DNA from: Aureobasidium sp. EXF-3400
Lineage: Eukaryota > Ascomycota > Dothideomycetes > Dothideales > Saccotheciaceae
Direction: 5' to 3'
NCBI GenBank assembly: GCA_024195585.1
Contig: SWBL01000042.1
Span: 146,844-210,843, forward strand
Length of the DNA: 64,000 nt
The translations under genes were made by a program, and so were the position numbers. Positions 633 through 62,148 of the stretch are shown in pieces. Positions within the stretch are counted from its first letter, which is position 1, and each line of letters opens with the position of its first letter. The notes beneath the pieces are model-generated. The model was given only the letters and a program-made list of their open reading frames with translations, had not been told where the DNA came from and made no database searches.

Positions 633-1184
633 AGATTTGGGCTGGTTGTGAGGTCTTGTGGCTGGAAAGAATACGAACTCGAAAAATCACTCTTGTTTGG
701 TCAGTCAGTATACTCATCAGACATACCATATGTATGTCACACGTTCCGTTGAACATATCAGGGTCTACTCTATCTGCTACTACTCTCCCCTTATACTGAA
801 GTATGTGATGCGCATAGCGATAGAAATGCACAATAGTAACAGCAATCAAGACAGTATCCACTGAGAAGCAACAAATTGTCGACTCTCAATAGACACGCCT
901 CTACCTCGAAGACAATTATGCCTTTTGATAGTCTCCATCTTGTCCTTGGCTATAGTCGCAATCGGTGGAGTTACAGAATCTATCATACAGGGAGGACAGA
1001 TGATCAAAACGCTGGCACTCACATTTGGAACTTTCAAGGGAGTATTCATTTTGGAAAAATCGACTTCATGATGATTACAGATAAGAATACATTAGATATA
1101 AGAGAGATACGAAATATGTCATCAAAGACCAATCAACCCCGATTGAGTCTCTGGAAGAAAATCACCCCAAGATAAGAGATGCAT
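633..1184. other. intergenic, holds element copy 1
   Basis: 3' flanks of two convergent genes. Apart from the repeat at 784-995 I see no gene or RNA here. The 996-1184 part is A-rich and probably 3' UTR of the minus-strand ferritin-like gene. Confidence 0.6.
784..995. repeat. MITE-like element, copy 1 (full length)
   Basis: About 212 bp. The outer inverted repeats are CTCCCCTTATACTGAAG at the left and the complement of CCTCCCTGTATGATAGA at the right. The inner inverted repeats start at 818 (CGATAGAAATGCACAAT) and end at 931. The centre carries TATCCACTGAGAAGCAACAA, shared with the copies at 26.1 kb (inverted) and 59.9 kb. It has no coding capacity and lies between the F-box gene and the ferritin-like gene. 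Confidence 0.75.
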
Positions 1185-2156
1185 TTAAACAGCAAGAGGC
1201 ATAATCTCAACAACAGCGGGGCCAGCAACAGTGTTGTCATCGGAGACAGCAGTGGAGTTGGTGGTCAAGATAGCGAACGACTCGCCAGCAGGGCCATCAA
1301 TGCTAACAGGGACTCTGACAGTGATCATGCAGTCCTGGACAATGGCAGCTGAGAACATGGTGCCAGTTGCCAGAGGGAAGGCAACGAACAGAGGACCAGC
1401 AGGGACCTTCATGTCAGCGGCGACCTCGAAGGTGATGAACTCGCCCTGCATGACGGGCATGGTGACGTTCTTGGCCACGCTGAGTGTGGGGAAGGCCTTG
1501 ACGGGGAGCATAGGGTTGGAAGCAGGGCAAGACTTGATGAAGGGAGCGGCAAGCGAGTAGACCTGGTCGAAGTCGAGGGGAACGTCGAAAGGCTGGGGGA
1601 AGGGCGACTCATCGATGTTGCCGCGGATGAAGGCGTCGTGGCGGGCTTCGACGGTCAGAATGCTGCCGGCTGCGGTGAGGTAGGCCTTGTTGGTGATGAG
1701 AGCGGCGGCGCCGAGGTAGGCGCTCACACCGACACCCTCGATGATGGATGCGGTGGCCAGGAAGGATGCAGGAGTGAGGTTGCCAAAGTCGTATGTGCAC
1801 TCTTCGACGGGTGTGACGCCAGCTCCCTTCAGGGCGGTGGTCAAGAAGTCGACGTGGGTCTGCTCATCGCGGGCAATCATTTGGAGGTTCTTGTAGAAGT
1901 CGGTCTCGTTGAAGCCTGCAGCAGCGAAGTCTTGTGCGGTGAAGTTGGCAAGTGCCTCGCGGTAGAAGGTGGCCTCGAGGTGCTCAAGGGTCAGGGCGTA
2001 GTTCAGGATAGTGCTGCAACAGTTAGTCAAGAGCTCACTGATATCTTCAATCGATGTTTCTTACCCATCAATGTCAGAGCTCTGGCGCTTGACGAGAGCA
2101 GGTGCAGCAGAAGCTGCGGTGGCCAGGACGGCGGTGCTGATGATTGAGGCCTTCAT
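1185..2156 (-). CDS. secreted ferritin-like domain protein (Rds1/desiccation-related type)
   Basis: Two exons, 2156-2065 and 2013-1185, joined over a 51-nt GT-AG intron, give 306 residues. The N-terminus (MKASIISTAVLATAASA) is a signal peptide followed by a Lys-Arg Kex2-type site. Residues about 30-165 form a four-helix ferritin-like fold: Leu-Glu-His-Leu-Glu-Ala-Thr-Phe-Tyr in helix 1, Ala-Arg-Asp-Glu-Gln-Thr-His in helix 2, and Glu-Ala-Arg-His-Asp in helix 4, which place Glu and His where the family has metal ligands. The C-terminal half is a beta-rich segment common in fungal members. The S. pombe relative rds1 responds to nutrient and stress signals; the role here is inferred only at family level. 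A TATATA-like AT stretch lies about 110 bp upstream. Confidence 0.85.
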
Positions 2157-4956
2157 TGTGAATTGGAGGAGATGTTTGAAGGGATTTGAAGGTAAGGATA
2201 GTAGTAAAGCTGTGAATGTAACTGAGCTGGATGATCAACAAGATGAGGGCGAGCTCTATGTTTATATAGCTACGCTCTCGCCCTGGCAGTCCAAAACATA
2301 ACAGCGATCGACCATTCCTCCAAGAGAGCCTCAGGCCGTTTTCCATAGCTTTTTGTCATTCTTGGAGCAAGATGTTGTGACGGTGATAAGCCACCCACGC
2401 TTTTGTGTCTCAGAACGGGAAGTGTCAACATAATTTATTGGCCCGGTTGAATTTTGAGGGTCATGCGCCAATTCAAAGTTAAGGTAGTTCTTAAGGTTAA
2501 ATACGATCAGCAAACGGCGCATACAAGTTGGAGATGATCGGGCTTAGTGGCAGTTCTGCCAACCATGAACTCTGGCTGATTGACTCAGATAAGATCGTAT
2601 CTCGGATTGATTTTAATCCTGCGGTTGGCCATAGGGTCTGGAAGTCATAGCTTCCATTGTCGATGCTCCAGTCTAGCAGCGGCCAAGAAGGTTTAACGTT
2701 GTTGTTAAATGGCGGACGAACGATGCGATGAAGAAGCTGGAGAAACGACGTCAATCCGGGTGCGCCGGAAAGTGAGTCCAAACGTTGCAAGCAGGTACAA
2801 CATTGGTCAATAGCTTCGTGGAGCTCAAGGACCAGAGGAATACAGCTCTGCGACGCGCTCAGATGGCGGCGATTGAGTGCAGCACAATCAACAGTGGTTA
2901 GATTTGATTGTATAGATCTGCAGAGGCAGAGCTCCAGGCTCGACGCTACACATGTCGTGGCATGATTTTGAGTTCCATAAGCTCCGCAGGCAGGGTCCGT
3001 GGAGCAAGCTTGCCTTGTACGAGCTACGAGCACACCGCTAGTGAACCTGTCTGAGCGGGTGCATGACGATCAAATTTGAGGCACGACGGAAGTGGAAGAG
3101 CGAGAGAAACGGGGAACGAAATACGCAGCGCTTTCTGGTGCGTAACAGACCCCATGTCTTGAGGAAGCTTCATCGCCGGCCAACGGTCGAAGGAGTCTGT
3201 GCTGTGCCTCGGGGACTTTGGAATTCTCATGACGTGCGAGGCTCCTTACAATTCCCATGTTCAGCAGCACAGCTTCTCTTTTTGTCATTTCCATTTTTAT
3301 TTCCATAGTTGAATGTCACTTGCTTGCGTGGCCTGTAGTTGTTTGACTCTTTCTCGAACCATGCCTCCGAGGACATTAACAATCCATCTCTGTCCATAGC
3401 CGTCTCCCGAGCGCTTCACACCCTCGTTCTTGTCAAGAGGCTAGATGTTGCATTGTCATCGAATCCAAAGACATTGGCTCGAGTCTCAAAGTCTCCAGCT
3501 CTTGAGCTTGTGAAGGATTTACCCTGGACATGGCTACCATAAAAGTCAAAAGCGTAACTCGTGCAATTCAGTCACTATACCAGGACTTGTGCGTGAGAGA
3601 AAGGAGGAAGTAGGACAATTCAGGATAAAAGATGCTCAAACATAAGCAAGGCAGAGGAGACCGAAACTCTTTCACTTTAGGTCCGTGAGCGCAAGCACCT
3701 GCGCCTCCGACTTCAGATCATGACACACGAGCTCAACTACATACACTTGCACAGGTGCTCGTTTCTCTAGGTCTATCTCAGATCTTGGTCATATCGTTCT
3801 CGCACACACCTTCATTGAGCCCTAGACCAGCCCCCCCTGGCACTTGGTAAACATCTGTTGCTAATTACATCCAGTGCGCACGACACATCGTTTCTGAACC
3901 TGAAGCGCGCTCGGCGCAATATTCTGGACCGCCTCGACAGATGTATAAACATACGATCCATTCGCGATCACACCTCCAACTCAAGAAACTCTTCTTCGAT
4001 CCCCAGCTGTTGCAGCAGCCAGAAAAGACCAATGAAAAGAAAAAGAAGTATTCGCGTCAGCTCGAGGTAGTGCAATACAAGCGACACTGTGCCAGAAGAT
4101 GGTGAGCAAGCCCAGAGCATCTTCCAGCCTCTGTTCCAAAAAGAAGAATAATCATTGAAGACGGCCCGTAGACCGGTCACAGCGATTAAACTATGAAGAA
4201 CAGATACTACACTTGATCTAAGCAATAAATTGCAAGAGACTTGAAGAGGAAAGAAGAGAGGAAAGAGCGAGGAAGAGGAGGCAGCTTATATAGTAGTGAG
4301 AGCAGGACACGGATTATGTAAGCATGTTTATGTTGTTTGGCTGGCAGGAGCCTTCCGCGGTCTTCTAGGGCCTTCCAGAGGGCTCTTGAAATCTCTCACT
4401 CAAGTGATTGTGAGACTGTGTTGTGTTTGCTGTTTGTTTGGTGGGATTGCAAACGGTATCAATCTGATAGGTGAAGTGGTAACCCTGTCTTCGGGTCCAA
4501 GATTAGTACTTCTACTCGAGTCGTAAAACTTCAAGTGGATTCTTGATGAGATATTGATCAATGCCGTAAATTGACAGTGATCAAATCCCAAGTCTCTCTG
4601 AGTACGGGTTTGCGGCTGACAGTCGCGAGTGAATAGTGGTTTGCTGCAAGGTTGAATTTGCTAGAGAAGCCAATGATCTTGTAGCCTGGATAGAGGGGTT
4701 GCAGAACTGTCAAAACACGATTGATCTAAAAGTAGAAATGAAAACAGAGTGTATAGTAACAACATGTACACGTGGATATCTCTTCTCTCATGACTCTTGA
4801 ACCACAAAGCAAAAACTCCCAACCCTTCCAATACCCAGAAACAACCAAACCCACCACCAAAGAACGGAAGGACAAGAAAGATCATCCACAACATCAAACC
4901 CAACTGACAATACGAAAAAGACATCCGGCGAGGAAGGCAAGAAGACCAACCCTCTC
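2157..4956. other. long intergenic stretch, no supported gene
   Basis: 2.8 kb without a gene I can defend. The longest open frame (minus, 3033-2497) starts on GTG and resembles no family I know. A plus-strand open frame at 3875-4105 follows a plausible branch point and acceptor (GCTAATTACATCCAG) and is Lys/Gln-rich, but no matching donor or start was found. The rest holds CT-rich and AT-rich tracts. The part from 4300 to 4956 is probably the 3' flank of SMC2. Confidence 0.4.
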
Positions 4957-8660: not shown

Positions 8661-8898
8661 CTTGTCGTTGCTGGCGCTGGGCCACTGCGTGTATGTTGTA
8701 TGGTCGTCAAGAGTGTTTTCTGCGACGGGCTTGTTTACGATCACTTTGTTTACCACCGACGCCCGACGGGCAGCTGCAGCCGACCGAACCCCTCCCGAAG
8801 CTTCATCACATGTCAAACATGCAATTAATTCGAGAAAAGAAAAAACAAATATAACATTCACGCTGGTGACTGTTTGCTCTCTAAGTGACTGCACTCCA

Positions 8899-10677: not shown

Positions 10678-10973
10678 GTTTGTTATGAGATGGGGTATCA
10701 AAGACTACAGTGTTTGGGGGAAAGAAACAAGACAATCGGACGGTAAATGGTGGTAGAAAGTTGTCTGGAAGAGAGCGAGGCGGGAAGCTCGTCTAGTGAC
10801 GTTGGTTTGTTTCGAGAGATTAACAGGGGCTTGGCCAAAGCCTCCGCCTGCAATAAACTACTGCCATTTATTTGACCTTTATATTGACTTTTGAATCCAT
10901 TCATTTTCCTTAAATTTTGTTGTACAACTTGTCATAATACACTCGGTTAAGATATAGATACAGGGGGTTGTTT

Positions 10974-25979: not shown

Positions 25980-26205
25980 CCTCGCAATGAGGGGTTGCAT
26001 CTCAATTACAAAGAGTGGCCTTTACCCTATCGCTAGTACAACAAAGAGCAAAGTATATACTATGAAAAGGCATAATTGTGTTCGGAAGCAGAGATGTGTC
26101 TACAGAGAGTTGAGTAAGTTGTCGATTCTCAGTGGACACTATCCTGTCTCCTGATACTATTGTGCATTTCTATAGCTGCATAACATGTCTCAGCATACGG
26201 GGGAA
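25980..26205. repeat. MITE-like element, copy 2 (inverted relative to copy 1)
   Basis: The core runs from 26060 (CTATGAAAAGGCATAATTG) to 26175 (ATTGTGCATTTCTATAG). The right outer repeat ends near 26205 (CAGCATACGGGGGA). The left outer end is degenerate and placed only roughly. The inner part contains the complement of TCCACTGAGAATCGACAACT, the same centre as copies 1 and 10, in reverse orientation. Confidence 0.65.
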
Positions 26206-26342
26206 ATGTGGCTAGGAGATGCACATATGTTTCTAGGGCAGATAAATGGTCATTATTAAACACTTTCTCCATGAGAAATCTCTTTTTTCCTGGAAAGTAT
26301 TGTGAATTGCTACAGTGATAACATGACTTCAAATCGTGGGAG
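26206..26342. repeat. MITE-like element, copy 3 (degenerate, abuts copy 2)
   Basis: The right half TCTCCATGAGAAATCTC, then TATTGTGAATTGCTACAG, matches the right half of the copy at 30.1 kb. It ends in CGTGGGAGG near 26342. The left end merges with copy 2. It lies 15 bp from the stop codon of the coiled-coil gene, so it is probably inside that gene's 3' UTR. Confidence 0.5.
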
Positions 26343-26357
26343 GAGAGACTATTTAAC

Positions 26358-27476
26358 TCAATATGCTGGAGGAGGGACATACTGCGCAGTAGCCTGCTGA
26401 AATGGTGGAGGAGCACCTTGGCCAGCGAATCTCTCAAAAGCCTCTGCTCTAATCCGTTGCAGCTCGAAACGAGAGCTGTTCAAAGCCTCCGCAGCCTGGG
26501 TATTTTGAGTAGCGGCTTCGTGATACGTGCGTTTCTGTTTGTCGAGTATCTCTCTGCACTGCTGCAAAGCTTTGTGCAATTGCATAGCCGAGTTCTTGAT
26601 ACGATCGTGTTGAGCCATATCAGTGAAGATGTTGTCGAAGAGCACATCACTGATGAAATGGCCATTGTCAATGTTGATTTCGGACAAAGGTGGAATGGCG
26701 GGTTGACAACGGCGGGCCTCATCCATATGGCGCAAGGACTCTGAAACACCGACTTGAGCTCTAGAGAGAGCGTCTCTTTCCATCATGTCGGTAAATGTGC
26801 CGCCGCCCCACATGTCCCAGCGAGACATGTCAAGAGCGTCGTCCATGTCCTTTGCTGCACGCTCTAAGTGTTGCAGTGTTGCATGCAGTGCCTCAGCAGC
26901 TCGTCGTTGTAGGTTCTGGTGTTGTGTGGAGCTGTCGACCCATTGCTTGTTGTTCTGCAAACTCGACTCCAGCTGGTCTTCGCCAGGTACTTCAGGTGTG
27001 GGACCGTCAAAGATGGAAGAATAGAGCCTATCGAGCTCAGATTGTGCTTGGTCGTGCCTGGTTGCTTCGCCTTGCAGACGTTGGTGTTCTTGCTGAGCAT
27101 CTGCCAAAGCTCTGGTGAGTTCAGCATGTGACTCTTGAGTTTCACGCTCCTTCTGCCATGCCTCGACGAATTCCTTCTCTTCCTTGCCTGCCTTTTCGGC
27201 GAATCTGGCTTGGCCTTTCTTGCCTCGCATCTTGTACATGTAGCGGGTAAAAGTGCTTTCTTCATACTTGATATGGTCTTTGCGTTCGTCCTCGGTAATC
27301 CGGTGGAGTCGTTTGATTTCTTTGTCTGTGGCTGCAATCTGATTTTGCAAATCTGAAATATATGTCGAGTTTTGCTTGAGAGCTGTGGGAGCATTGTCTG
27401 TTTGCGAGAGGACTGCAAGCAACTCTTGGTTCTTTCCCGCCGCGTGTTGGAGTGATTCGATAAGTCTAGAACTCAT
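26358..27476 (-). CDS. coiled-coil protein, conserved fungal type, unknown
   Basis: Intronless, 372 residues from the ATG at 27476. Residues about 40-185 and 215-345 are heptad-rich and charged (for example SDLQNQIAATDKEIKRLHRI and AEALHATLQHLERAAKDMDD) and should form long coiled coils. A short segment between them holds SRWDMWGGGTFTDM, and the C-terminus is Pro/Gln-rich (PPPFQQATAQYVPPPAY), which could bind WW or SH3 domains. I do not recognise a named family. The start at 27476 is chosen over an upstream in-frame start at 27644, which is not preceded by coding-like sequence. Confidence 0.75.
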   Translation of the reverse strand: MSSRLIESLQHAAGKNQELLAVLSQTDNAPTALKQNSTYISDLQNQIAATDKEIKRLHRITEDERKDHIKYEESTFTRYMYKMRGKKGQARFAEKAGKEEKEFVEAWQKERETQESHAELTRALADAQQEHQRLQGEATRHDQAQSELDRLYSSIFDGPTPEVPGEDQLESSLQNNKQWVDSSTQHQNLQRRAAEALHATLQHLERAAKDMDDALDMSRWDMWGGGTFTDMMERDALSRAQVGVSESLRHMDEARRCQPAIPPLSEINIDNGHFISDVLFDNIFTDMAQHDRIKNSAMQLHKALQQCREILDKQKRTYHEAATQNTQAAEALNSSRFELQRIRAEAFERFAGQGAPPPFQQATAQYVPPPAY

Positions 27477-28526
27477 TGTTGTGTGTGACTCTGATGTTTT
27501 GATAATTGATTTCAAGTCCGATACAATCGAGTATGATAAATTTCCAAGTGGAAGGTGCTGATGACTGTACGGGAGATAAATGTGATATTCAACAGATTGA
27601 CACCTACCTGAGGCAGGAAATCCGTCCTTATATGTGCCCCTCATCCTACCTACATCACAGTGCTACTCATGTCTTAGGCCGAGCATTGCTTAGTGGCAGT
27701 GTTAAATCCTTCCCGATTGATTGGGTTGAAGATGAGGATTCAACCGGGCTGTGTGGACATTCAGCCTTGTGCCAAGCTGCCTGCGCGACTCGTGATTGTC
27801 GATCATAACCTCATCTTGTTTCTTCCACTCTTCCTTCCTCCTTGGCTGTTGTCATGTTGTTCTGCCTCCCTGTGTGCTAAAGACAGTCACAGTGTAGCTA
27901 TTGGAATGCATAATACTTTTGAGAATGATGTAATTTCCATAGAGAGGACCCCATTATAGGTCATCTCAATGGCTAGCCTCACATTTTAATCGCAACTGTG
28001 CATTTTAATAGCTTATAATAACCCTTGTACCTCGGTATGGAGAAGGTGTCATTTGCAAAATTGTGTGTCTACAGCACACGGGGAGGTGGTATCAATGTGG
28101 CTGAGGGCTTGTGGCTTTGGTTCGACGAGGACCGGAAATAAGATTGATCGCAATCAGATAGGCGAAGTCATTCAGAAGTTGCGAATATCCGTAGAGGACT
28201 TTGTTCGTTCCTTCTGAACACTACTCCTTCATACCACTATTCACGAGTTAGAGAACGGGTCAATCCAACCAAGCCCGACTATGAAACTCTGCCTCGTGTC
28301 TTCACCGAGTTCTCAACTGGTCAATCGTGCAAGCTCTCAGGAAATATTGTGTGCAGCCCTTCGTGGAGCGCGATATTGGGTATCTCAACTGCTTAACTTT
28401 ATCTCTCCCCTATAACATGGAAGACGCCTCTGACTCCAAACATTTACTTCATGAGAGAAACGAAAAGACCCTGCCCTAGAACCAGCAACCCAATGCAAAA
28501 TGCGAGAAAAGACAAGACAAGGCTGT
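27477..28526. other. intergenic, element copy 4
   Basis: About 1 kb between the coiled-coil gene and BUD23. It holds one full MITE-like element (27865-28086). No gene is supported in the remainder. Confidence 0.55.
27865..28086. repeat. MITE-like element, copy 4 (full length, best-kept outer repeats)
   Basis: 222 bp. It begins CCTCCCTGTGTGCTAAAGAC and ends with the near-exact complement (GTCTACAGCACACGGGGAGG). The inner repeats are CTATTGGAATGCATAAT and AACTGTGCATTTTAATAG. It is closely related along its whole length to the copy at 61941-62148, including the ATCTCAATGG centre and the ATGGAGAAGG arm. No target-site duplication is obvious. Confidence 0.85.
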
Positions 28527-29390
28527 CTAGAAAGCAATCTTTCTCTTTCTGCCAGTGTACTTGGAGTTCGGCTTGACAACCTTGCCTTGCTTCTCCATCT
28601 GATCCTTCTTCCTTGTGATCCAAGCTTTGCTGCCCTTGACTCTTGACATGTCCTTGCGCGAACGTTGATCTCTTTTGCGACGGGCATCTTGAATGTCAAC
28701 ATCGGTCAAGCCATTCACAACACCAGTGATGTCTCTACTCGCCGCTTCTTGCTCTCTTCCCAAATCACCACCACCAACTGTGAGGACAAGGTACAACTTT
28801 TCACTCTTGGTGCCTGGGTCGTCCTCGAGAATACCAGCGCCGAAGCCAGCCTTGACTGCAGCGGCACTGATCATGTTCCTCTGCACCTTGTTTTTGGGGT
28901 AGAACTGGCAGACTGCACGACCACCACGGCGCAGCGAAGCATACAAGCCATCAAAGAAGCGCTTCAGACGACCTTCAGGTGTGACGTCGCTCGACTCTGC
29001 ATTACACAACCATTGAATAGCCGAGATACTGATGGCAGCATCGAACGAGCCAGGACGGAAGGGAACACCTTGTCCAATATCTGCCAGCATCAAATCTCCA
29101 TCGACGTCTCTGTCAAGTGCTTGTCCCAGCATAGACGCTGAAATGTCCATGCCAATCCAGGTGTGTGGTCCTCCCTCTTCTGGCTCGACTTGCGAGAGGA
29201 TCTCGCCGGACAGACCGCTACCGCATCCGAGATCGAGAATCAGAGAGGGTGATCGTAAGTCGAGAAGTTCGAGTGCGCGGTTCGTCATGGATGCTTGAAT
29301 GTTCTTGATACGACTGTTGGTGGTGTATTTGCGACTTTCGACATCGTTGTAGAAGAGGTCGGGCGGCAGCAAGTCTTCGGGGCGCGACAT
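28527..29390 (-). CDS. BUD23: 18S rRNA (guanine-N7) methyltransferase Bud23
   Basis: Intronless, 287 residues. Bud23 with its activator Trm112 methylates one guanine in 18S rRNA (G1575 in yeast) during 40S subunit maturation in the nucleus. The N-terminus (RPEDLLPPDLFYNDVESRKY) is the conserved family start. The SAM-binding loop is LILDLGCGSGLSGEIL at about residues 50-65. The acidic GMDIS strand, a DIGQGVPF post-II segment and SISAIQWLCNA follow. The C-terminus is strongly basic (KYTGRKRKIAF), as in the WBSCR22/Bud23 domain. All expected parts are present. Confidence 0.96.
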   Translation of the reverse strand: MSRPEDLLPPDLFYNDVESRKYTTNSRIKNIQASMTNRALELLDLRSPSLILDLGCGSGLSGEILSQVEPEEGGPHTWIGMDISASMLGQALDRDVDGDLMLADIGQGVPFRPGSFDAAISISAIQWLCNAESSDVTPEGRLKRFFDGLYASLRRGGRAVCQFYPKNKVQRNMISAAAVKAGFGAGILEDDPGTKSEKLYLVLTVGGGDLGREQEAASRDITGVVNGLTDVDIQDARRKRDQRSRKDMSRVKGSKAWITRKKDQMEKQGKVVKPNSKYTGRKRKIAF

Positions 29391-29770
29391 GTTTGCGGTT
29401 CGGAGTGCGCAGTAGGTAGTTTGTCTGGTTCACGTGCGTTTCCGAGGACGGTTTCGTTGTAGTATGTCGCAAATTGAGAAAGGTTGCTTGGTCAAATAAT
29501 TTTTGAGAGGCTGAAAGACGGAGGGCTTTGCTGCACAAGATTATGCGCAGTCGCACAATTGTGTGGGGAAGCCGAAAGGGTCCAGCGACTTGACCCTCAA
29601 CGACATGTCCTGTTGCTTCCTCAAGTCCAGTTCACATATCAAAGGCAAATAAGTACAACTGTCAAGATATACAGGAATTGCTTGAACCGATGATGACTTT
29701 GAGCGAGACATGATAAATTAGTTAAAGAGGAGGAACATCGTGAGCAAAACACCCACTACAACCACAAGAC

Positions 29771-29951
29771 CCTCTCTCTCACAATGTCACACTGCGATGG
29801 TTCGACCCATCAAAATGCACAATTGCTTTCCAAACGGATGTATGGCCATGGAGATGTCCAAAGTTGTCGCTCTCTCTGTGGATCTCACTTCTTCTCGGAA
29901 AACATTGTGTATTTTTATAGCTGCATTAAGACGGTGTTGACACAGGGGAGA
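29771..29951. repeat. MITE-like element, copy 5
   Basis: About 181 bp. Inner repeats ATCAAAATGCACAATTG and ATTGTGTATTTTTATAG; right outer repeat TGTTGACACAGGGGAGA. The left outer repeat CCTCTCTCTCACAATGTCAC is diverged. The centre has ATGTCCAAAGTTGTC and CTCTCTGTGGATCTCAC. Confidence 0.7.
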
Positions 29952-30032
29952 TCATTCTTCGACCAGCAACCCGCTTTTCGACGACGAATTCTCTCCTTAT
30001 GTACTGGCCTGTCACAACCTCACAGTTAACTT

Positions 30033-30210
30033 CTCTCCCACAGTGTTGTACAGTGATATTCAAGCTGTCGAAATACACAGTTGCTTTCTGGACACAAGTG
30101 TAGCCAAAGAAATGCTCCAAGAGACCACTTTCTCTCATGAGATTTCTCTCTCTAGACAGTATCATGCATTTCTATAGGTACATTGGAACAGTTCTCGGCA
30201 TACGAGAAAG
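30033..30210. repeat. MITE-like element, copy 6
   Basis: About 178 bp. Left outer TTCTCTCCCACAGTGTTGTA; inner TGTCGAAATACACAGTTG and TATCATGCATTTCTATAG; right outer CTCGGCATACGAGAAAG. It shares CATGAGATTTCTCTCTCTAG with copy 3. It lies 300 bp upstream of the orphan gene at 30511. Confidence 0.7.
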
Positions 30211-30510
30211 CCGCCCTTTGACGACTAAGCGTCCGCTCGACGATCAGCCTCTCATTCGACGACTGACCCGGTCCTCTGGGACGAACCTCCTCGTCGAGGC
30301 GGCCGGCCCCTCCTATCCAATCACTTCTACCCCGTCGACGGGGGGTTGAGTGAACGTCGAGACTAGGGCTCTCGACGGATTTTCCTTCTATATCCGTGAC
30401 CTTCCGTCTCGAGTTTGCTCGGCAAAGCAACACTATATCTTGCCAACACGAGCCTTCACAACATTATCAAGCAAACATACGACGCTGGCTCTGATCAGCA
30501 CTCTGTCAAG

Positions 30511-31465
30511 ATGGCGAGTCAGCCGGAGCACCACAACTTATATATTACTAGTACAACCATTACCACCTATGATCATTATACGTATGTGGCAGTCTGTTTT
30601 TTTCTGTCTCTCTACAGTTGGGTGTACTTACACATTCAGGGGCGTCATTATCATCGACACCGTTTGGACTGGCACCTGGCTCGGACAGCAGATCTTTCAA
30701 GACGTCGAGCACCAGGTCATCCACCCCGAGTCAGCCCCTGCTCCCGAGTCGGCCCCCTCGACCACACCCAGACCTCCTCCGTTCGTCTATCTGGGCCCGG
30801 GTGAACTCGTTTCCGTCGCCCGAAGAGACCCGCCTGCCACCGGAATCCCGGAGTCGCCAGTGCTGTCCCGTCAAAGCGGTCTAGCAGCTCGTGTACGCAA
30901 CAATGCTGCCTCGACCAGAGGAAGAGAACAAGCCCCTCTGAACATTCCTTACACACTCGGTCAAACCCGTCAATTGACCCCTGCCGAACGCCTTTTGGAA
31001 CGCGCTCGTGCCGATGTGGCTCGCTGGACACATCTGAATCGCACCTCGATCAACACCGATTCTCGTGGTCGTACTACACTCCGCCCTCAACTCCTCGATG
31101 GTGTGCCAGAAGTCCTGCAGCGCGATGCTTCTTACACCTACATCCGCGAAGGCCGTGTCATCAGACGTGTGCCCAATGATATCATGCCCAGTGCCGAAAG
31201 AGGCAACAACAACACTTCAACCACTCACCGCCACAACAATCGCGATGAAACAGCTACAACCACGCCCAATCTTGCAGACTATTCTCGACGCAGAACCCGC
31301 GCAATGCTCAGACGTCGCCATGGCAGTGTTGATATTGGCGATTCTTCACTTCTAGATGGCGAGATTGCAGAACTCGAAGGTCATGCTGCTTTGCGTCCTT
31401 CAACTGCTCGTGGTTCTTCGGGTTCTTTGGACGAGGATGAGAGTGCTGGACAAGATGGTGCTTAG
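30511..31465 (+). CDS. hypothetical protein with N-terminal hydrophobic segment
   Basis: Two exons (30511-30581, 30640-31465) over a 58-nt intron encode 298 residues. After a Thr/Tyr/His-rich start, residues about 24-44 (GVIIIDTVWTGTWLGQQIFQ) are hydrophobic and may be a weak membrane or signal-anchor helix. A Pro-rich stretch, an Arg-rich region with LTPAERLLERARADVARW, and an acidic Ser-rich tail ending DEDESAGQDGA follow. I do not recognise the family. It is bracketed by MITE-like copies at 30033-30210 and 31557-31734. The splice sites close the frame, but the start exon is less certain than the second exon. Confidence 0.6.
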
Positions 31466-31556
31466 AAAAAGGTAGCATCACAATGGTCGTTTCAGAGAAG
31501 GATGACATTCACTTAATCATTAATTGCAAATTTCTTTCCCTGCCATGAACATGGTA

Positions 31557-31734
31557 TCTCCTTCGTGACTCCATGTCTGTGGTATAGGTACAGAAATGCA
31601 CGGTATAGTTTGAAAAAGTAAGATTGTCCACTGAGAGCCCATGAGTACCTCTGCTCTCTCTGGACATAACTCTGAATCTAGAAATGATTTTGCATTTTTA
31701 CAGCATATCCATAATTGTGGTGCTAACCTGGGAG
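31557..31734. repeat. MITE-like element, copy 7
   Basis: Core 31587-31703: left GTACAGAAATGCACGGT, centre TTGTCCACTGAGAGCCCATG and CTCTCTCTGGACATAA, right ATTTTGCATTTTTACAG. The outer repeats are weak (right: GTGCTAACCTGGGAGA), so the ends are approximate. Confidence 0.6.
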
Positions 31735-35108: not shown

Positions 35109-35111
35109 ACA

Positions 35112-36494: not shown

Positions 36495-36861
36495 CGTTGC
36501 TGATTTTTTGATGTAGATGAAGGAAAAGATGACTTGGGTCGGCAAAAAGGTTTGATGTAGGATGTCGAGCAAGGTAAGAGGTACCCGTCAATTGCACTTT
36601 CACTTTTTGTTTCGATTCACACTCACTCCGAATCACTGTCTCATGTTCACCAACACTTCACCCATAGACTTGTTCTAGATCGACTTGCCGAGAAGGCAGG
36701 CTCTCAATCCCTGAAGAGATCTCTACAATCCTCCATGTACTGATTAGCCTTGTAAACAGATATACAAACGCACGGTACTATCCCAACATGAATACTGATT
36801 CTGGGATCAAGCTGCCTCTCAGTAAGCTCAGGTCTGGTCGAGACGGCTTTCCAAGAGGCAT
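36495..36861. other. intergenic, no feature seen
   Basis: About 370 bp between two minus-strand genes. It probably holds the promoter of the 134-residue gene and the 3' UTR of the next one. Confidence 0.4.
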
Positions 36862-37548
36862 TCAACGATGTTTCCAAGCTATGGAAATGCACAATCGTAG
36901 TAGTTCGTGGACACTCGTCCAAGAAGAGTTCTCCAGACTCTCGAGTCTCAGTGAATATTGTCTTGTTTCTTGGACATGTTTGGTGTTTCGATAGTGTAGT
37001 ACATCGTCACATGTCACGCGGAGAGTAATCGACACCACCGTCTCTTCTTCAATGACTCGAGTTCGCTGATCTTTCCTGATTCCAAATCCTACACACCTGG
37101 CATAGAACACTTGAACATTATGCCAATTCTGAATGACATGTATAGCCACACACGCAGATAGCGAATACACAATAGGCTGTAGACAACAATCCACAAACCA
37201 AGCAGCCCAGGATTCTTGTGCTTGTCTCTCCTCTTCCAACAAGCTTGCTGCTTTCCTCTCCTCTTCCGTCAATCTTGCTGCTTCTCGAGCTCTCCTTTCT
37301 TGGTATCTACGGCAAAACTTTTCGCTATGCTCTTCTGCTTCCTGGTGTGTCCTTTCGCGGCGTTGATGAGCGTTTTCCAAAGTGATGATTGTATGTGTGG
37401 CTGTAGGTAGGATTGTCGAGGTAAAGATAGTTGTCGTGATGGTTGTTGTGGCTGGGTTGCACGGAGCACAGGGACTCAACAGCCAGGATCCCCATATGGG
37501 CCATGATAGTAAAAGAGGTATGACTGTGAGGACAAAGTATTGAGGCAT
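36862..37548 (-). CDS. hypothetical signal-anchored coiled-coil protein with repeat-derived C-terminus
   Basis: 228 residues from the ATG at 37548 (an upstream in-frame start exists at 37638). It starts with a hydrophobic helix (FVLTVIPLLLSWPIWGSWLL), then a Thr-rich stretch, then a charged Glu/Arg coiled coil (residues about 65-120), then a second hydrophobic segment with a Cys pair (FVDCCLQPIVYSLSACVAIH). The last 44 or so codons lie inside a MITE-like element (36879-36994), which supplies the C-terminus and stop. Another copy lies 134 bp upstream of the start. I do not recognise the family. The gene may be lineage-specific, or a decaying gene with an altered 3' end. Confidence 0.45.
   Translation of the reverse strand: MPQYFVLTVIPLLLSWPIWGSWLLSPCAPCNPATTTITTTIFTSTILPTATHTIITLENAHQRRERTHQEAEEHSEKFCRRYQERRAREAARLTEEERKAASLLEEERQAQESWAAWFVDCCLQPIVYSLSACVAIHVIQNWHNVQVFYARCVGFGIRKDQRTRVIEEETVVSITLRVTCDDVLHYRNTKHVQETRQYSLRLESLENSSWTSVHELLRLCISIAWKHR
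36879..36994. repeat. MITE-like element, copy 8 (core)
   Basis: Inner repeats CTATGGAAATGCACAAT at the left and TGGTGTTTCGATAG at the right. The centre has TCCAAGAAGAGTTCTCCAGA and CTTGTTTCTTGGACATG. Outer repeats are not clear. It overlaps the 3' end of the minus-strand ORF at 36862-37548. Confidence 0.6.
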
Positions 37549-37681
37549 GCTTGGTATTTTGGGTCTTGAGAGGAGTGTTCTTTGCAGCTTTTGTTGGTTT
37601 ATGTACAGGCGAGATTTGGTCATGCCACCACTTCTCACGTGGCATCGACGATTCTTTTAACCTCTCCCAGCTCATTGCATA

Positions 37682-37850
37682 TCTCCAAGTGTCAAGGTCA
37701 ATCTTATTGAAATTGTCGAAATGCACGACATGTTCAAGAAACAGACAGTTATCAGTGGGAGTTGGAAATCAACAGGCTCCCACTGGATACATGTCTACAG
37801 TGAATACAACTGTGCATTTCGACAAGTATATTGCGACAGACATTGGGACA
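37682..37850. repeat. MITE-like element, copy 9
   Basis: The inner repeats are nearly perfect: ATTGTCGAAATGCACGACA starting about 37712 and AACTGTGCATTTCGACAAG ending about 37825. At the centre a perfect 9-bp inverted repeat, CAGTGGGAG (37753-37761) and CTCCCACTG (37777-37785), could form a hairpin with a 15-nt loop. Outer ends are approximate. It lies between the orphan gene and the acid phosphatase gene. Confidence 0.7.
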
Positions 37851-37915
37851 TGGATATGTGTAATATTTTTCGAGGACCTGTCTTATCAGAGCCCTAGCCA
37901 CGACGCTCTCTGCAC

Positions 37916-39205: not shown

Positions 39206-39377
39206 AATGGTTGTGGTCAAAAGGTACAATGCTCTGTTTCCTGGAAGAAACAGAACTTTATATGCATGTACAGGGCTGTACTGCAGGCGATCGCCGGAGG
39301 GTTGGTGGTGGCTCGCAGGTGGGACCTGACTAGCGCTATCGCTAGTGTCGATAAGCAAGAGGTTTATCACTTCCAAT

Positions 39378-39563
39378 CCTCTCTCATATGGGATGTAGAG
39401 CGACATCAGAGCTATGAATCTGCACAGTCATTTTCAAATCAGGAACGGAGTAGAGTAGGTGACAGTTGATGAGATGGAAGATCTTTTGGTGGGATCTATG
39501 ATTTCCCAGAAACAGTGTTGTATTACAGGGCTGTATGCGCTATAATCAATGGCACTCGGAGAG
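39378..39563. repeat. MITE-like element, copy 12 (degenerate)
   Basis: About 186 bp. Left outer CCTCTCTCATATGGGATGTA, inner GCTATGAATCTGCACAGTC, right inner AACAGTGTTGTATTACAG, right outer GGCACTCGGAGAG. Each part matches the family at about 60-80% by eye. It lies in the promoter of the acid phosphatase gene. Confidence 0.55.
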
Positions 39564-39920: not shown

Positions 39921-40001
39921 TCGCTCGAATCGAAGGCGAGGCTACATCACTTTTTGGTCAACCATCGTTGTCTGTATAACACCAGCCATATTGACTGCAC
40001 A

Positions 40002-45409: not shown

Positions 45410-45710
45410 GGTTGTGTCTGTGGTTACGTCTACCCTCGCGCGCAAATGCTCGTCGTCAATTGCTCGCGTTGAAATTCGTCGCTTGGCACAATTATGTTCC
45501 CTTATCGATTGTCTTTGTGCCTGCACGCCAACTTTATGCACCTCCGCCTTTTGTGCACCCCGCCCTCGATCCACTCCACGATGCAACTTACAGACTTCAG
45601 CACAAAGGCAAGATCAAACCAATCAAAGCGCATCTCATTTTCTATTTATTTACACGCTCTAGTTTCCAGTTACACTTCTAATGCTAGTGACGATGCCTGC
45701 GCCATCTACC

Positions 45711-54378: not shown

Positions 54379-55118
<740 letters not shown>

Positions 55119-55707
55119 GGTGTAATATCGATTGTGTGCCTGTTGTTGTTGTGTTGATCAAAAGTGTCAGGATTCTACCAAGTGGTCACTGAACGTCAGA
55201 GAGTGGGGGTGGAGAGGGGAGCTTTGACTTTCGCGTACCTGACTTGCCTTGACTACACGTACGAGTAGGGTCATCACATCAACGACTGTTTTACCGCTTT
55301 GAAGATACAGGAATAGAACCTCTTGATTCCAGAGCAACACTCGATGGTGTCAAAATATATGTTCTGGTGAACGATTGAACGTATGGTCAAATTTTCTTGA
55401 GCTTATCATTCGTATAGCTCAGACTCGGACTAGATGCGAAATAATCACCGCACAGCATCTTCACATCAAGCTTGCTCTGCGAGAACGCACGATATGCCTC
55501 AATCATATGGCTACGGACCCAATCCTTGAGGAGATAAAAGGGGAAGACTATCTAAGACATTGCATGAACACATAGAGACCCTTTGTTGTGTCGTCGCTCG
55601 TAGTCGCGACTATCCGTTCCAGGAATCTTGAATTTGGAATCATTTTCTACCAGAGCTGCCGTTTAAGGAACCAACTGAAGGACATGGTGAGATGAGGTTG
55701 GACCGCC
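55119..55707. other. intergenic, no feature seen
   Basis: RIB4 promoter side plus the 3' flank of the next minus-strand ORF. No gene, tRNA or repeat found by eye. Confidence 0.45.
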
Positions 55708-56106
55708 TCACTCAATCGATGGAAGTGCACGCTTGGCGAGCCATACAATGAGAATGACGCCTATTAGAGCTGCTGCGACAAGCATGATCGCTACTTCTTC
55801 CCTTATATTGAGTGCGTCCGAAACGGTGAGCTTGGCCATCTTCCTGTGCTTCTTGTGTGTGTACCAGTGATCTGTATTCACCGCAGGAACCGGGACGCTA
55901 CCATCTGCACCCTCCGGCGAGTTGGTAGCTGGTACAGCATGTTGCCAGGTAGAGTCGTGTGGCTCTTGATAAGGTTCTGCGTTCCACCACGTCCAAGGCG
56001 ATAATTTCTTCCACCACGGCCATGGCTCGCTGTCGGCTTGTTGCGCAAGGCGCCATGCACGTTGCTGGCTGTCAACGACACAAAGAGAAAGTAAGAAGGA
56101 GATCAT
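55708..56106 (-). CDS. hypothetical small membrane protein
   Basis: 132 residues. It opens with a hydrophobic segment (MISFLLSLCVV), has a Trp-rich middle (WPWWKKLSPWTWW) and ends in a clear membrane helix of about 22 residues (EVAIMLVAAALIGVILIVWL) with basic residues after it. The topology suggests a secreted or luminal Trp-rich domain with a C-terminal anchor. I do not recognise it. It stands alone in a gene-poor area, and an extra upstream exon is possible. Confidence 0.45.
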   Translation of the reverse strand: MISFLLSLCVVDSQQRAWRLAQQADSEPWPWWKKLSPWTWWNAEPYQEPHDSTWQHAVPATNSPEGADGSVPVPAVNTDHWYTHKKHRKMAKLTVSDALNIREEVAIMLVAAALIGVILIVWLAKRALPSIE

Positions 56107-58159
56107 TGTTAGAGGCCCTAGGATGATCTAGACAATCATGTAAGTCGCGTGCTGGTGAGATGGTGCAACGCGCCCAGTCAGCATACCCGTGAAAGCAAGG
56201 TGTCAGGCCCTGCTGAAGATAGCTGCTCCGCTTCGAGCTTAACTGCATCGTCAGGCACTTCTGCTAGCGGATCTGAATCTCGCTTCCTATGCCTCCTTGG
56301 GTTTTGCGGTGTTTCCATAGTTGTGCGATGAGTGCGTGAGGCTGATCAAGTTCCGGGGAGAGCGTATGCAGATTCGCGTGGCGCTGCTAATGCATGCTTG
56401 TTTGGTCGGGGGTTGATGTCGTCTTTCGATAGTGTCTGTCAGCTGGAGGTGACAGAAGATGCAGCTTGTTCTTTTCTGACAACCGCTGCTCATGTGTATG
56501 TATTTCGAGCTTGTGACGTAGTCCCCACGACCACCCGCCCGGTATGCTTGCAGTTCCCAAGCACACGACGGGATCTCCTGTATTCCGACCGCTCGGGTTC
56601 GGCAAGTCGCTCGCCCTTGATGTTCTGCGTGCACCTGTGAGACAACGACCATATACGTGCATGATTACTCAACATTCTTGCATCCACTGCAGTCTGCTGG
56701 TTCATCATGCTGGCCATCTAGCCCGGTTACTGGGTTCTGTCGACTCCCAAAAGCTTTTGGCCTGTCAGGACCCGAGCCCCGGGTTTGTCTGTGCGGAGGC
56801 GGGAAGCGATAAAGGACGCCATGAACTTCTACTATCGAACTTATCGCTCTTCTGGTGTAGATTGTATAGAAGTCGATTGACTGGTGAGATACACAAGCGT
56901 AATCCGAGGTGCACCCCGGCAAAGGGAAGCTCACCTAAGCATATTTGTATGTTCATGACCTGGTAGACTTCCATGGTAACGCTAAGGATAGAGAGTCACA
57001 GAGCAGGTGCATGTCATGCGTTCGGAAAGATGGGCCCGCTTGCTCGGTAGGTGTTTCTCTCGCTGCGGCTGTGCCTGGCAGGATCTTGGTACAAGGCGCG
57101 TCCATTCCTTCTGCTGCATCTCAATCTCTAATAGAGGCTGCATGCCGTCCATGGATTATACCCGGCAGACATGCGCAGATGATTCGAAATACTCAAATAC
57201 CAGTGACCAACTACTCCTTTATGTTGCGCTGCTGCCCCAAGGTCTCTTGGTCGATTAATTCGGCTTCATGCAGCAGCCCTTCTAGACCGAGACTGTGTCT
57301 CGCTGGGTCACAAGAATAGATAACCACCGGGTGTGGCTTTCTCCAGTGGTCTGTCAAACACAACCTACCCAGGTACCGGTAACCTCTCAGAGCCTTAGCT
57401 CACCCTTTCTGGACCATGAGCCTGAAATATAGGGTCTTGACAACTACATGCTGCAGACCAGCCGCTCATGATGATGGTGGTTCTTCGAAAAGGGAAGACA
57501 AGAAGCAAAGCGGCCTGCGCGAATTCGTTCCCAAGTCCGCTCATGTGGCTTTAAATGGCGCCATCAATGAGCACAACCTATGCGGCCCCAGGAGAGGCGT
57601 CAGCTAGGTGGTCGATTATGACAGACAAGGCGGCCGCTCGATCTTGTTCCCGCCCCATATTCAGAGCTCTTACTTGACTTGATCCTCGGATTCGCATGCA
57701 ACCAACGTACATGCATCCGAAGGCATAGAGTTCCGTATTTGTTTTCAAATCTTTGTCAGTGGTCTTAGCCACTACTCAAGGACCATCGAGACATTCTCAG
57801 CACGACCACCAAGCTGGCTCCGTTATGTGCACATGATTGCCTTTTTTGGACGTACGCCCAGACATTTTGCCAACGAACACCTGCAGCCAAATCTGCATTG
57901 TTGCAGTACCATGAATAGCCGTCGGAAAGATGGTGGCCATTGCTTGTGTTGATGCATCTCCAATCTGCTAACCAAATTCCTATATATCTGACAAACATGC
58001 CAGATCGTCAAAGTACCAGATCTCACCAACTGCACTCGTTCCTGATCTACCAGCTACTCGGTACAAATCTCGACTTGTCTCTCTCGCTGAGCTTGTGGTT
58101 CTGGCTTGCCTTCGCCCAATCGTTCTGACCTACCCGCCATACACTGGATATAAAACGCA
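56107..58159. other. gene-poor stretch, no supported gene
   Basis: Two kilobases with only short overlapping frames on both strands and no recognisable protein. Candidate exons have Cys/Ser/Arg-rich, noise-like composition. No MITE-like copy is evident here, unlike in the flanks further right. A short distal gene or decayed sequence cannot be excluded. Confidence 0.4.
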
Positions 58160-59122
58160 ATGCCAGGCAATTCATCCCCTGTTTCTCCAGGATCTTCTGA
58201 TCCGCCGATGTCGTTCCAGTTTGTCAATCTCACAGATCCTAGCGATACCAAGGATCAAAAGGTTCGACGAGCCATTCGAAGTCATGTCACGAAGCAACAG
58301 CATCAAAAAGCAGAACAGCTGGCAGCAGCTCGAAGGTCAAACAGTGATCCGCAATTGCTCGGTACATCATCAGCGCAAATTTCGCAAGGTCGGGCGCATG
58401 CCGCATCATATCCTATGTCAAGACCTACTTCCTCGGACCAGCAAAGCCCAGTTTCTCCGACTAGTGGTTCTGACGTGTCTTCGTTCTCATCGACACCCCA
58501 ATACCCCATGATAGACGTATCACAGGTCTACCCGGCTCAGTGGCTTCCTTATCTCAACCAGATCCTGGAGCATTGTAAGTGTAATACCAGACCTCTTGGT
58601 TTAGCTTCAGATGCTAACACGCGCACTCGAACAGATCTTACTTTCACAGCCAAAGAAGTACTGCAATCAGATGATGCATCTACAATGGCTCTCCTGAGAT
58701 CTACCTGGATGCCATTTGTCATGACTGATGTGGCACTGCTTCATGCTGTGCTTTTATTCGCTGCATCCCTTTTTCGGTCCTCCATGGCTGCGCACGCCCA
58801 GGTCGTAGATCTGTTTCAGCTTAAAGACATGGCTATCCAAGCCATGAACGAAAACCTTACGACCAAGGATTCCATGATAGCAACTATGGCAACCATGGCT
58901 CAGTATGAGGCCTTTTGGAGAGATGCAGATGCATTCTCGACGCACATGAGTGGTCTACGGCAATTTGTTGAGATGCGCGGTGGACTCGCGGCACTGGGAT
59001 TAGAAGGCTTTCTCGAAAGGATGTTGGTAGCCATCGATTTCAACTTGGCTAGAACTACTGGGCACGAGCGATTGTTTGATCCAAGCCGACAATCCCTCCG
59101 CCGGCAAGGATCGCACGGCTAA
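58160..59122 (+). CDS. fungal transcription-factor-like protein, no zinc cluster, short C-terminus
   Basis: Two exons (58160-58574, 58635-59122) over a 60-nt in-frame, stop-free intron give 300 residues. The start MSFQFVNLTDPSDTKDQKVR, with the following AIRSHVTKQQHQK, is the conserved N-terminal motif of a large group of fungal-specific transcription factor domain proteins (PF11951 type) that often lack a Zn2Cys6 DNA-binding domain. The helical regulatory domain is recognisable up to LEGFLERMLVAIDFNLARTT. Family members normally continue for another 100-250 residues, but here the frame stops soon after HERLFDPSRQ. A further coding-like frame lies at 59300-59599. It may be a truncated gene, a pseudogene, or one with introns I could not place. 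Confidence 0.6.
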   Translation: MPGNSSPVSPGSSDPPMSFQFVNLTDPSDTKDQKVRRAIRSHVTKQQHQKAEQLAAARRSNSDPQLLGTSSAQISQGRAHAASYPMSRPTSSDQQSPVSPTSGSDVSSFSSTPQYPMIDVSQVYPAQWLPYLNQILEHCKCNTRPLGLASDANTRTRTDLTFTAKEVLQSDDASTMALLRSTWMPFVMTDVALLHAVLLFAASLFRSSMAAHAQVVDLFQLKDMAIQAMNENLTTKDSMIATMATMAQYEAFWRDADAFSTHMSGLRQFVEMRGGLAALGLEGFLERMLVAIDFNLARTTGHERLFDPSRQSLRRQGSHG

Positions 59123-59299
59123 TAATGCAGTCATGATGCTTGCATCAACTCAAACCCTGCATTCTACCAACATGTTCGCCTGGTTCATTTCGCCCATATA
59201 TATTCTCAAGAAGTCTACTACCATGACAAAAAATAATATAATGTTTTGGCTGCGGGACGCTCTATTTATCCACCAATACTGTGATATTAACATCATTAG

Positions 59300-59599
59300 G
59301 CAGGTAGTACACGGTTAGCAAGCCCTAGAGCGGCAGGTAATATATCGCAAGATCCGGCCGATTACCGAGCTCGCATCGATCTACGAATAAATTCTTGCCT
59401 ATATAGGAAGGAAGTCCGGGTACAACCGCCGTGGCATGTTTCGGTTGAACTTCAACTCTTGCTGCGCATCTGTTCACCCACCAGCATCGATAATTTTGAC
59501 AGACTTCTAGGGATTATACACATCGAACCGAACTTCTGCAAGCAGTTAATACCGATCATCCGCGCGTGCGAGGAACAACCATCAGCACAATTGGACTGA
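59300..59599 (+). pseudogene. coding-like fragment downstream of the transcription-factor gene
   Basis: A 99-codon open frame without an ATG start, opening right after an acceptor-like ATTAG and ending in TGA. The translation contains QDPADYRARIDLRINSCLYR, PPWHVSVELQLLLRI and FDRLLGIIHIEPNFCKQLIP, with protein-like helix periodicity and low noise. It is in the same frame register as the upstream gene, but 177 nt with stops separate them and no good donor was found. It may be the gene's displaced 3' exon or part of a different broken gene. Confidence 0.35.
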
Positions 59600-59808
59600 C
59601 TGCAGAGAACCGCTGTGCATACGGACCCCAACCACTGGTACCGCTAGCGACACCGCCGACAAGAAAGGTCGTGCTCGACTCATCAACATGTGCCGAGAAC
59701 TGCAAAATCGTTTATTCAACCAGGATAAGGCAGTGCATGTCCCGTCATCCGTCTGATGAAACGTGATCGCGTGGTAGAGAACGGGCGAGTCACAGGTGAG
59801 GGAGCTGT

Positions 59809-60022
59809 CCTCCCCATGCTCTAAAGAATTTACCGCGTGTAGCTATGAAAATGCACAATACTATCAGAAAATCGGACGATATCCACTGAGAAACAACAAC
59901 TTATTGGCTCTCGATGGACGCGCCTCTTCTCCAAGAACAGCTGTGCCTTTTTATAGTGTAAACTGTGCTTGTCGCTGCAGGCGGAGTACAATGGAAGTTA
60001 CAGACTTTGGATCACGGGTAGG
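59809..60022. repeat. MITE-like element, copy 10 (full length)
   Basis: 214 bp, very close to copy 1 in length and order. Left outer CCTCCCCATGCTCTAAAGAA, inner CTATGAAAATGCACAAT, centre ATCCACTGAGAAACAACAAC, right inner GTGCCTTTTTATAG ending 59956, and a right arm GGAAGTTACAGACTTTGGAT parallel to copy 1. Confidence 0.8.
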
Positions 60023-61940
60023 GTGCCAGAGGAAATGCAAGATCGACGCAGCGAAGAAGTTCGCGATCAGCTGGTGCATTGGAAGAACCAGAGGGGAGTG
60101 GTTCAACTCCACCCTTTCCCCTCGCCCAGCAGTCCGACTGGCTCCACTCAGCGCTGTTCAGATCCCATGATCAATAGAGGTGCATGGCAGGGTAGATATC
60201 GGGCTTGATTCGTCGGCTTTTGATTTCAGTTCTGTCACTTCCATGTGCCGGCTGCCCTCGAACCTTTCTGCCCCAAAACATTTGAAAGAATTGACTTGCA
60301 TAGCCTTGCTTGGAGTCTGGTGGCTTGTGGCATAACAGCCATGTATCCAACACAGCGCATCACACGCACACATCTCGCTTACGTTCAGGCCTACTCAACC
60401 ATTTTCAGCAATGTGAAGTCTTCACTTGGCTGACGACAAAGCTGTCGAATCACCATCGTCATCAATCGGGCCAAGACAATCATGCAGAGCCCGTGTAAGT
60501 ACATAAGAGGTGCAGACGTCTAGACCGTAGCACAGGTTTTTGCTCGAGCACCAGATCGCAGATTCTCGATTGCTACGAGGCATGATTTGCCGCAAACCCG
60601 TGTTGTTTTGGTGATGCCCAACCAAGCTGCCGGGTCTAAAGCAAGCAACGCGGCGTGTGAATGATTGACAGCAAAGCATAGTTGACGAGTATTTTCCTAG
60701 CCATCTCTTTGCTTGCTGCGGACTTTGGGCCTTGACTCGGGGTGAATGTTATCGCTTCTCACGCTGCAAGTCATGTATTTCCGAGCGTTGTGCGTCTGAA
60801 ACACGTAGAAAAAGTGATCAAAAGACAATCTGCAGGTCCGGCGAAGGCTCCTTCCTCCAACAACCATTGGTCTCTCCAATAAGCGCTTCGGGTGGGAAGG
60901 CACAGGATGCTTGAGGTATCCAACGGAACCGTGCGTTGCTTGCAGACTGCCTATCTCGACATCTGGTAACGCTATTTGCTGCGGGCTCTCAACATGCACA
61001 CGCTTGAATGCGCGCGTTTTCGAATGAGATGTGAAAAGAACATGTACAGAGTGCATGAACACTGGTTGTCCAACACTCTGGTGTTTCCTCGCTGCAGGCC
61101 TCACGTACCGTTACTAGTAGCAACCAACCACGTATCGCTCTTGCCCATGTATACTGCATGACCAATTCTGAGGACGACCCTTTGACAACACAAGCAAAGA
61201 TCGGAGAGTCTCACCGACCGTTGCACTATCACTTGATCGATTACTCATCGAGCTTCATCTGCTTGTTCTTTCCTTCGATATACTACGGCTGCTCCTACCC
61301 TCCCCGTATTCCGGGATCTTTCATTTTATCACGTTCTCCTCTCGCTACGATACCAAATCACCCGGAGAGCTTCGAGAACACACACTTCGAGAGGGGGACA
61401 AGTCCAACGTGAGGCAACGAAATCATGACTTTTTGCAATCGCTGCTCTCTTCTATGTCAGAGCTGTACACCTCTGCAAGTATCATGTAGCAAACTTCGGC
61501 GTCCATGAGGAGAATGCTCACCAACCGTCCTATCGACTGTTCATCCAAGTAGTATGTTTTATGGACTCGACTGACCATACACCATTACCAGGCTCACCAA
61601 TCAGCCGATAGAAATCTGTAAGCCATATCATAGACCGCTTGCTCCCTCCACCGCTTCTGAGACTGTCAGTTGTCGACGAGGGTCGAAGCAGTCGATCAAT
61701 ACGAGACTGCGTCATTACGATCAGCCGGAACAAACCCAACCAGGAACATCGATTCTTTCAATTGAAGCCGCACTCTGCATGGGATGCGGGCGATGAAAAG
61801 AGATGGAACACAACATTATTTGCCTTACTTGGTCTCGTCCAGTCTCTGCCGATTCATGGAAAGGTTGGTTGAACATACCTGACCGTCAAAGTCGATCCGC
61901 ACAATGTGAGAAAAAAAACACTATCAAGTCAAAGTCATGT

Positions 61941-62148
61941 CCTCCCCGTGTGCCAAAGACAGTCACAATGTAGCTATAAAAATGCACAATTCTTTTATAA
62001 AGAATGTGATTTCCTTGGAGAGAACCTCGTTGGAGGCTATCTCAATGGCCAAGCTCATTTTCGAGTTGTAACTGTGCATTTCGATAGCTTATGACACCTT
62101 ATATCTCGGGATGGAGAAGGCGTCAATTCGTCTTTAGCACATGGGGAG
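61941..62148. repeat. MITE-like element, copy 11 (full length)
   Basis: 208 bp. Left outer CCTCCCCGTGTGCCAAAGAC and right outer GTCTTTAGCACATGGGGAGG are inverted repeats with two mismatches over 20 bp. Inner repeats GCTATAAAAATGCACAAT and ACTGTGCATTTCGATAGC. Sister of copy 4 along the whole length. Confidence 0.85.

Follow-up and report, generated by a model that had tools for sequence, protein, structure and literature searches.

A MITE family with nested inverted repeats and a 2-bp target-site duplication in the genome of Aureobasidium sp. EXF-3400

Results

The window, the whole 64,000-nucleotide stretch analysed here, corresponds to C42:146844-210843 in an assembly of 53.4 Mb and 717 contigs. 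Pfam domains identified in the ten open reading frames scanned indicate genes for SMC, EH-domain, ZNF598, histidine phosphatase, MutS, P-type ATPase, SET1 and WSC proteins. The MutS-domain protein matches MSH6, at 81% identity for the best matches and 72% for the best named ones, and the best named match of the WSC protein is from Aureobasidium melanogenum (78%, with 62% of the query covered); protein matches carrying names are mostly from ascomycete fungi. A U2 snRNA gene is located at 4046-4243 on the minus strand (Rfam covariance model, 113 bits). The WSC-domain gene region, 62418-63958, has a second copy at C353:15072-16639 which is 73% identical and was not usable as a homologous locus for empty-site comparison.

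Dispersed in the window are members of a repeat family, of which the initial annotation had counted about 12. Profiles of two subfamilies, A and B, detected 10 strong members (E<=1e-4) and 2 weak ones, with no match in the reversed window up to E 0.5, in agreement with that count, although both outer ends are present in four copies only; three further matches at E 0.03-0.21 were excluded. Because the first profiles contained these four complete copies, they were rebuilt without them (34 A and 33 B rows), and again 10 places in the window were detected at E<=1e-4 and zero in the reversed window. The complete copies, all on the plus strand, lie at 784..995 (subfamily B, flanked by AC/AC; profile B 1.1e-44, and 1.3e-36 with window copies left out), 27865..28086 (A, TG/TG; profile A 6e-64, 1.1e-61 left out), 59809..60022 (B, GT/GT; profile B 5.9e-55, 2.5e-48 left out) and 61941..62149 (A, with a short internal deletion; profile A 1.2e-63, 2e-62 left out), the last being flanked by GT/CT and hence without an exact duplication. 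Full-length copies had been annotated at essentially these places, the sole correction being an end at 62149 rather than 62148.

The remaining strong members are decayed or partial, at 26020..26202 (minus strand, subfamily B; profile B 2.5e-37), 29770..29948 (minus, nearer A; profile A 5.2e-21), 29996..30208 (minus, near full length and nearer A; profile A 2.6e-23), 31583..31710 (plus, the inner part of a copy nearer B; profile B 1.7e-13), 36859..37021 (a decayed fragment with no strand assigned; profile B 1.3e-5, A 1.7e-4, and B 5.6e-5 left out) and 37682..37853 (plus; profile A 3.6e-8, B 3.5e-6). Both weak fragments are doubtful, 26253..26345 (plus; profile A, E 0.009) and 39362..39563 (minus; profile B 5.5e-4, 1.4e-4 left out). 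With a 20-mer of the outer repeat, eight places are observed at up to 6 mismatches, seven of them ends of the copies beginning at 784, 27865, 59809 and 61941; the eighth, 45593-45612 with 6 mismatches, is unsupported as a copy, and the left end of copy 784, which exceeds 6 mismatches, was recovered by profile. A 17-mer of the inner repeat gives 26 matches at up to 4 mismatches, eight unpaired and 18 forming nine pairs whose outer edges are 113-116 bp apart: 818/931, 26060/26175, 27898/28011, 29807/29920, 30065/30177, 31588/31703, 37713/37825, 59843/59956 and 61974/62087.

The family extends across the genome, the outer end being found 209 times at up to 2 mismatches compared with 0 for a reversed-pattern control. 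This is not the handful of copies at random similarity levels that, together with identification as a known named repeat or as an RNA gene family, had been named initially as grounds for abandoning the family; none of these outcomes was encountered. A DNA search with copy 61941 returned 55 matches with 40 of 114 candidates scored, 15 of the 55 rows being second-strand matches of the repeat arms. From fetched stretches and the window, 71 full copies were collected, 36 nearest A (consensus 223 bp) and 35 nearest B (consensus 215 bp). At a cut of 0.33, 72 rows (one of them spurious) had been clustered earlier into two groups, with 34 and 32 members, leaving six outliers; two main subfamilies plus six diverged sequences fit the three or more sequence groups first proposed. 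The alignment used below comprises 62 rows, after removal of nine of the 71 copies that were short or of odd length. Copies cluster, as five strong members and one weak one lie within 5.7 kb of the window (26020-31710) and another family match occurs within 150 bp of 8 of the 71 copies, one of these (L084) being doubtful. In 201 kb around known copies 11 further copies were found, one pair counted twice, a density of ~5 per 100 kb which is biased upward by the double-counted pair and by at least one stretch having been chosen for holding two; the 10 strong copies of the window amount to ~16 per 100 kb. As a rough guess, the genome may hold hundreds to a few thousand copies.

As originally noted, none of the copies encodes a protein: stop-free stretches in the 71 copies reach 75 codons at most, and any single frame is the longest one in 20 copies or fewer. 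The claim that the family is undescribed is supported only within the open literature, Rfam and viral contigs, with Repbase and Dfam outside this scope. Viral contigs gave 0 matches, and among 5.39 million open papers one of four words of family sequence matched, in a single muscle-biology paper, no such family being named in the titles or abstract openings of the papers found.

The nested design was largely upheld, with an altered spacing. Outer repeats of 26-27 bp are 92-96% identical and end in CCTCC..GGAGG. The inner inverted repeat, initially placed 25-65 bp inside the outer one, lies 31-34 bp inside the left end and 66-74 bp inside the right end in the A and B consensus sequences, which makes the elements of both subfamilies asymmetric. 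An additional, innermost third inverted repeat is short, CCATAGAGA/TCTCAGTGG in A and CCACTGAGA/TCTCTGTGG in B, and completes a three-step hairpin. The two consensus sequences differ at a single base of their first 18 bp, and both contain GTGTAGCTATANAAATGCACAATACT, which starts at position 28 in A and 29 in B. Outer ends and subterminal motif agree far more than the remainder, the stretches between them differing.

Insertion is recorded in the sequence directly outside the outer repeats. An exact 2-bp target-site duplication flanks CCTCC..GGAGG in 48 of 71 copies (22/36 in A, 26/35 in B), compared with a mean of 6.0 and a maximum of 15 in 2000 shuffles. Fourteen different dinucleotides occur among the 48, AT (8) and AA (6) being the commonest and TA accounting for 4. 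In a near-identical set of 71 rows, which includes one spurious row and lacks copy 784, the duplication was found in 47, six shifted 2-bp registers gave 1-7, and other lengths gave 0/71 for 3 bp, 0 for 4 bp and 17 for single bases. The 23 copies without an exact duplication include one-base differences and ends apparently misplaced by ~1 base. Two groups of MITEs were rejected on these observations. Stowaway and mimp MITEs, of the Tc1/mariner and pogo groups, duplicate TA only, which is contradicted by the 14 dinucleotides with TA in 4/48, and a PIF/Harbinger (Tourist) MITE of the 3-bp kind is contradicted by the absence of 3-bp duplications (0/71).

A filled and an empty site were observed where a B copy, L046:7208-7421, is inserted within an A copy and bordered by TG left and right. 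When its flanks are joined, one A match runs across the junction (model 3-187, 87.7 bits), interrupted 8 bases from the junction by an 11-base gap. Of the 71 flank pairs joined in this way, this is the sole clear case; the joined flanks of L084 also span the junction, weakly (E 8.7e-5), and are doubtful. Two chimeric copies, L047:7577-7799 and L066:155-376, combine an A-type left tip with a B-type right tip and lack an exact duplication, a pattern compatible with one copy having recombined with another and seen in these two cases only. A further copy, L012 at ~1500-1719, lies between two imperfect ~50-bp repeats of other sequence.

The assembly itself breaks inside family copies, at ends of contigs C152, C154, C235, C527 and C552. 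A copy is cut off by the end of C152 and another by that of C154, C527 and C552 start inside one, and C527/C152 overlap by 96 identical bases and C552/C154 by 99, such that joining them would restore duplications of AA/AA and TA/TA, respectively. The same 96 identical bases are shared between C152 and C235, yet the flank of C235 is CC and not AA; the contig joins are therefore inferred, and C235 represents a further copy. Of 134 readable bases, a single one distinguishes the C235 copy from the C527 copy, and their flanks are unrelated over 3 kb. This near identity suggests recent movement, though both copies are at contig ends.

The inverted repeats also generate a hairpin, and the two-stage hairpin suggested in the initial annotation is correct in its geometry. 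The RNA fold of 61941-62149 is very stable (z -8.1, 0/200 shuffles as good). A stable fold raises the alternative that the copies are structured RNA genes, or hairpin RNAs under selection for their fold, and several values exceed shuffled controls in its favour. For a three-helix structure scored over 62 rows and 3513 cells, 81.4% of cells are paired as opposed to 80.0% in shuffles (0/500 as high) and 35-50% when the structure is slid; the covariation score is 0.161 versus 0.130 (0/500 as high), and 126 cells are changed on both sides versus 96.7 (1/500). However, the pairing excess is 1.4 points in a structure taken from the consensus of the very rows scored, and neither the pairs with two-sided change (25 versus 22.1, 80/500) nor the number of additional pair types (83 versus 79, 64/500) is remarkable. 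As 96 of the 126 two-sided cells fall at four pairs which separate A from B, few events are involved, and the covariation is explained as well by two transposase sites changing in step as by a fold. RNAalifold's own prediction comprises 13 pairs at -4.5 kcal/mol, the copy at 59809-60022 folds modestly (z -2.3, 3/200 shuffles as good), and at gathering scores the U2 gene is the only Rfam match in the window. Together with the 2-bp duplications, which call for transposition, these results make an RNA gene family extremely improbable. The hairpin is real and needs no function of its own.

A full-length transposon sharing the outer ends, a partner that even accepted MITEs do not always have on record, was not found in the stretches read, which represent part of the 209 end neighbourhoods. 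Twenty-one ends that at first sight had no mate were followed further; 20 of these continue in family sequence, in some cases cut off where a contig ends, and one, L059:112 (C112:19011), runs into gene-like sequence without a mate and was rejected as the end of an autonomous element and taken as a fragment. Behind AAAGTC-type ends, 18 stretches were retrieved, of which the readable ones show short copies and three, L043-L045, are cut by contig ends. RIP-like ends (GTATAC/GTGTAC) number 128 by pattern, and three stretches read behind them likewise revealed no autonomous element, L095 and L097 being complete short copies and L096 a short copy whose far end is lost. In domain searches of the same genome, Transposase_21 and Plavaka (PF02992, PF18759) each gave 0 matches with the positive control silent in both searches, and MULE gave 0 matches with the control positive in 3 genomes. 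DDE_1 (Fot1/pogo-type) gave 12 matches, 7 without an internal stop, and DDE_Tnp_4 gave 2; compared by eye with the ends listed, which are part of the total, none of these 14 is near one, the one shared contig (C11) separating them by ~230 kb.

Destruction of a partner by RIP is plausible but unproven. RIP is expected to leave TAG or TAA stops, and 36 of 37 stops in broken transposase frames on contigs C41, C11, C158, C62, C621, C626 and C386 are of these two kinds. The family copies themselves do not indicate RIP. C-to-T change at CpA/CpC/CpG/CpT is 0.105/0.078/0.119/0.108 in A copies, with no CpA excess, and 0.155/0.099/0.149/0.087 in B copies, in which CpA exceeds CpT and is similar to CpG. 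A length of 220 bp may be insufficient for RIP to act.

Discussion

The copies constitute a MITE family moved by cut-and-paste, a reading in which we have very high confidence because of the exact 2-bp duplication of any sequence and the insertion of a B copy into an A copy. Non-coding elements of ~220 bp with long terminal inverted repeats, a duplication of fixed length, many dispersed copies and a filled and empty site are what defines such a family, and the initial designation as MITE-like is thereby substantiated. Counted against the reading are the partner not found, the 23 of 71 copies without an exact duplication, the single clear nested case and the inferred nature of the contig joins. 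Mechanistically, the site recognised by the transposase would be bipartite, composed of the outer repeat plus the conserved subterminal inverted repeat, and A and B would share these two parts because both form that site. The gene for this transposase may have been lost, be mutated beyond recognition, lie among sequence not read or share only the very tips of the elements, and some of the movement was probably recent.

An extension of the MITE reading is that hairpins formed by read-through transcripts could, as a side effect, enter small-RNA silencing or influence genes nearby. The fold stability of 61941-62149 would be compatible with this, as would the position of the copies near genes, as MITEs often are: by eye, the 10 strong copies overlap none of the ten Pfam-scanned reading frames. 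However, inverted repeats produce such a fold anyway, and the strong fragment at 36859-37021 overlaps a 258-aa reading frame (36862-37638) outside those ten. We consider such an effect unlikely. MITE origin by cut-and-paste stands irrespective of it.

The element is of an ordinary kind, well supported as a MITE family and without a match to a named one in the sources covered; the point of interest is which transposase moved it. The ends and the duplication, taken together, fit no superfamily compared, and Tc1/mariner, Tourist and typical CACTA were set aside on this account. One candidate for the mobiliser, which otherwise leaves the MITE reading the same, is a CMC/CACTA-like transposase (EnSpm, Mirage, Plavaka). 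CMC/CACTA transposases produce short duplications without sequence specificity and use subterminal repeats, and the family possesses paired subterminal motifs and a 2-bp duplication without fixed sequence. In excerpts from PMC12730594, duplications of 2-5 bp and mostly CA..TG termini are given for the CMC clade, so that the duplication found here falls in the range while the termini, CCTCC..GGAGG, are neither CA..TG nor the TGT..ACA of PlavakaA. Also against this candidate are the 0 matches to Plavaka and Transposase_21, each with a silent positive control. On this evidence a CMC/CACTA-like mover is possible, if somewhat unlikely. We regard it as quite unlikely that the mover belonged to a transposase superfamily or lineage so far undescribed, whose hallmarks would be CCTCC..GGAGG termini, bipartite ends that include an inverted subterminal site, and duplication of any 2 bp. 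The two profiles, the 2-bp duplication and the shared subterminal motif provide a searchable signature by which the missing transposase could be sought in related genomes.

Among known systems, Stowaway and mimp elements resemble the present family in size, structure and a 2-bp duplication, but theirs is TA only whereas TA accounts for 4/48 here. Tourist elements, as PIF/Harbinger MITEs are generally named, are alike in size and structure, and 2-bp duplications occur in that group; in the excerpts from PMC12730594, however, the canonical Harbinger duplication is 3 bp and that of PHISTA is TA, as opposed to any 2 bp in this family. Plavaka shares fungal occurrence and, for PlavakaA, a 2-bp duplication, and differs in its ends, which according to the same excerpts are TGT..ACA in PlavakaA and CATCA..TGATG in PlavakaB. 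The viral CACTA MITEs described in part of PMC6004678, for example CMC-NA_1 and CMC-NA_2, are likewise short and non-coding, with terminal inverted repeats and a 2-bp duplication, but start with CAC and end with GTG, whereas the family described here starts with CCTCC and ends with GGAGG.
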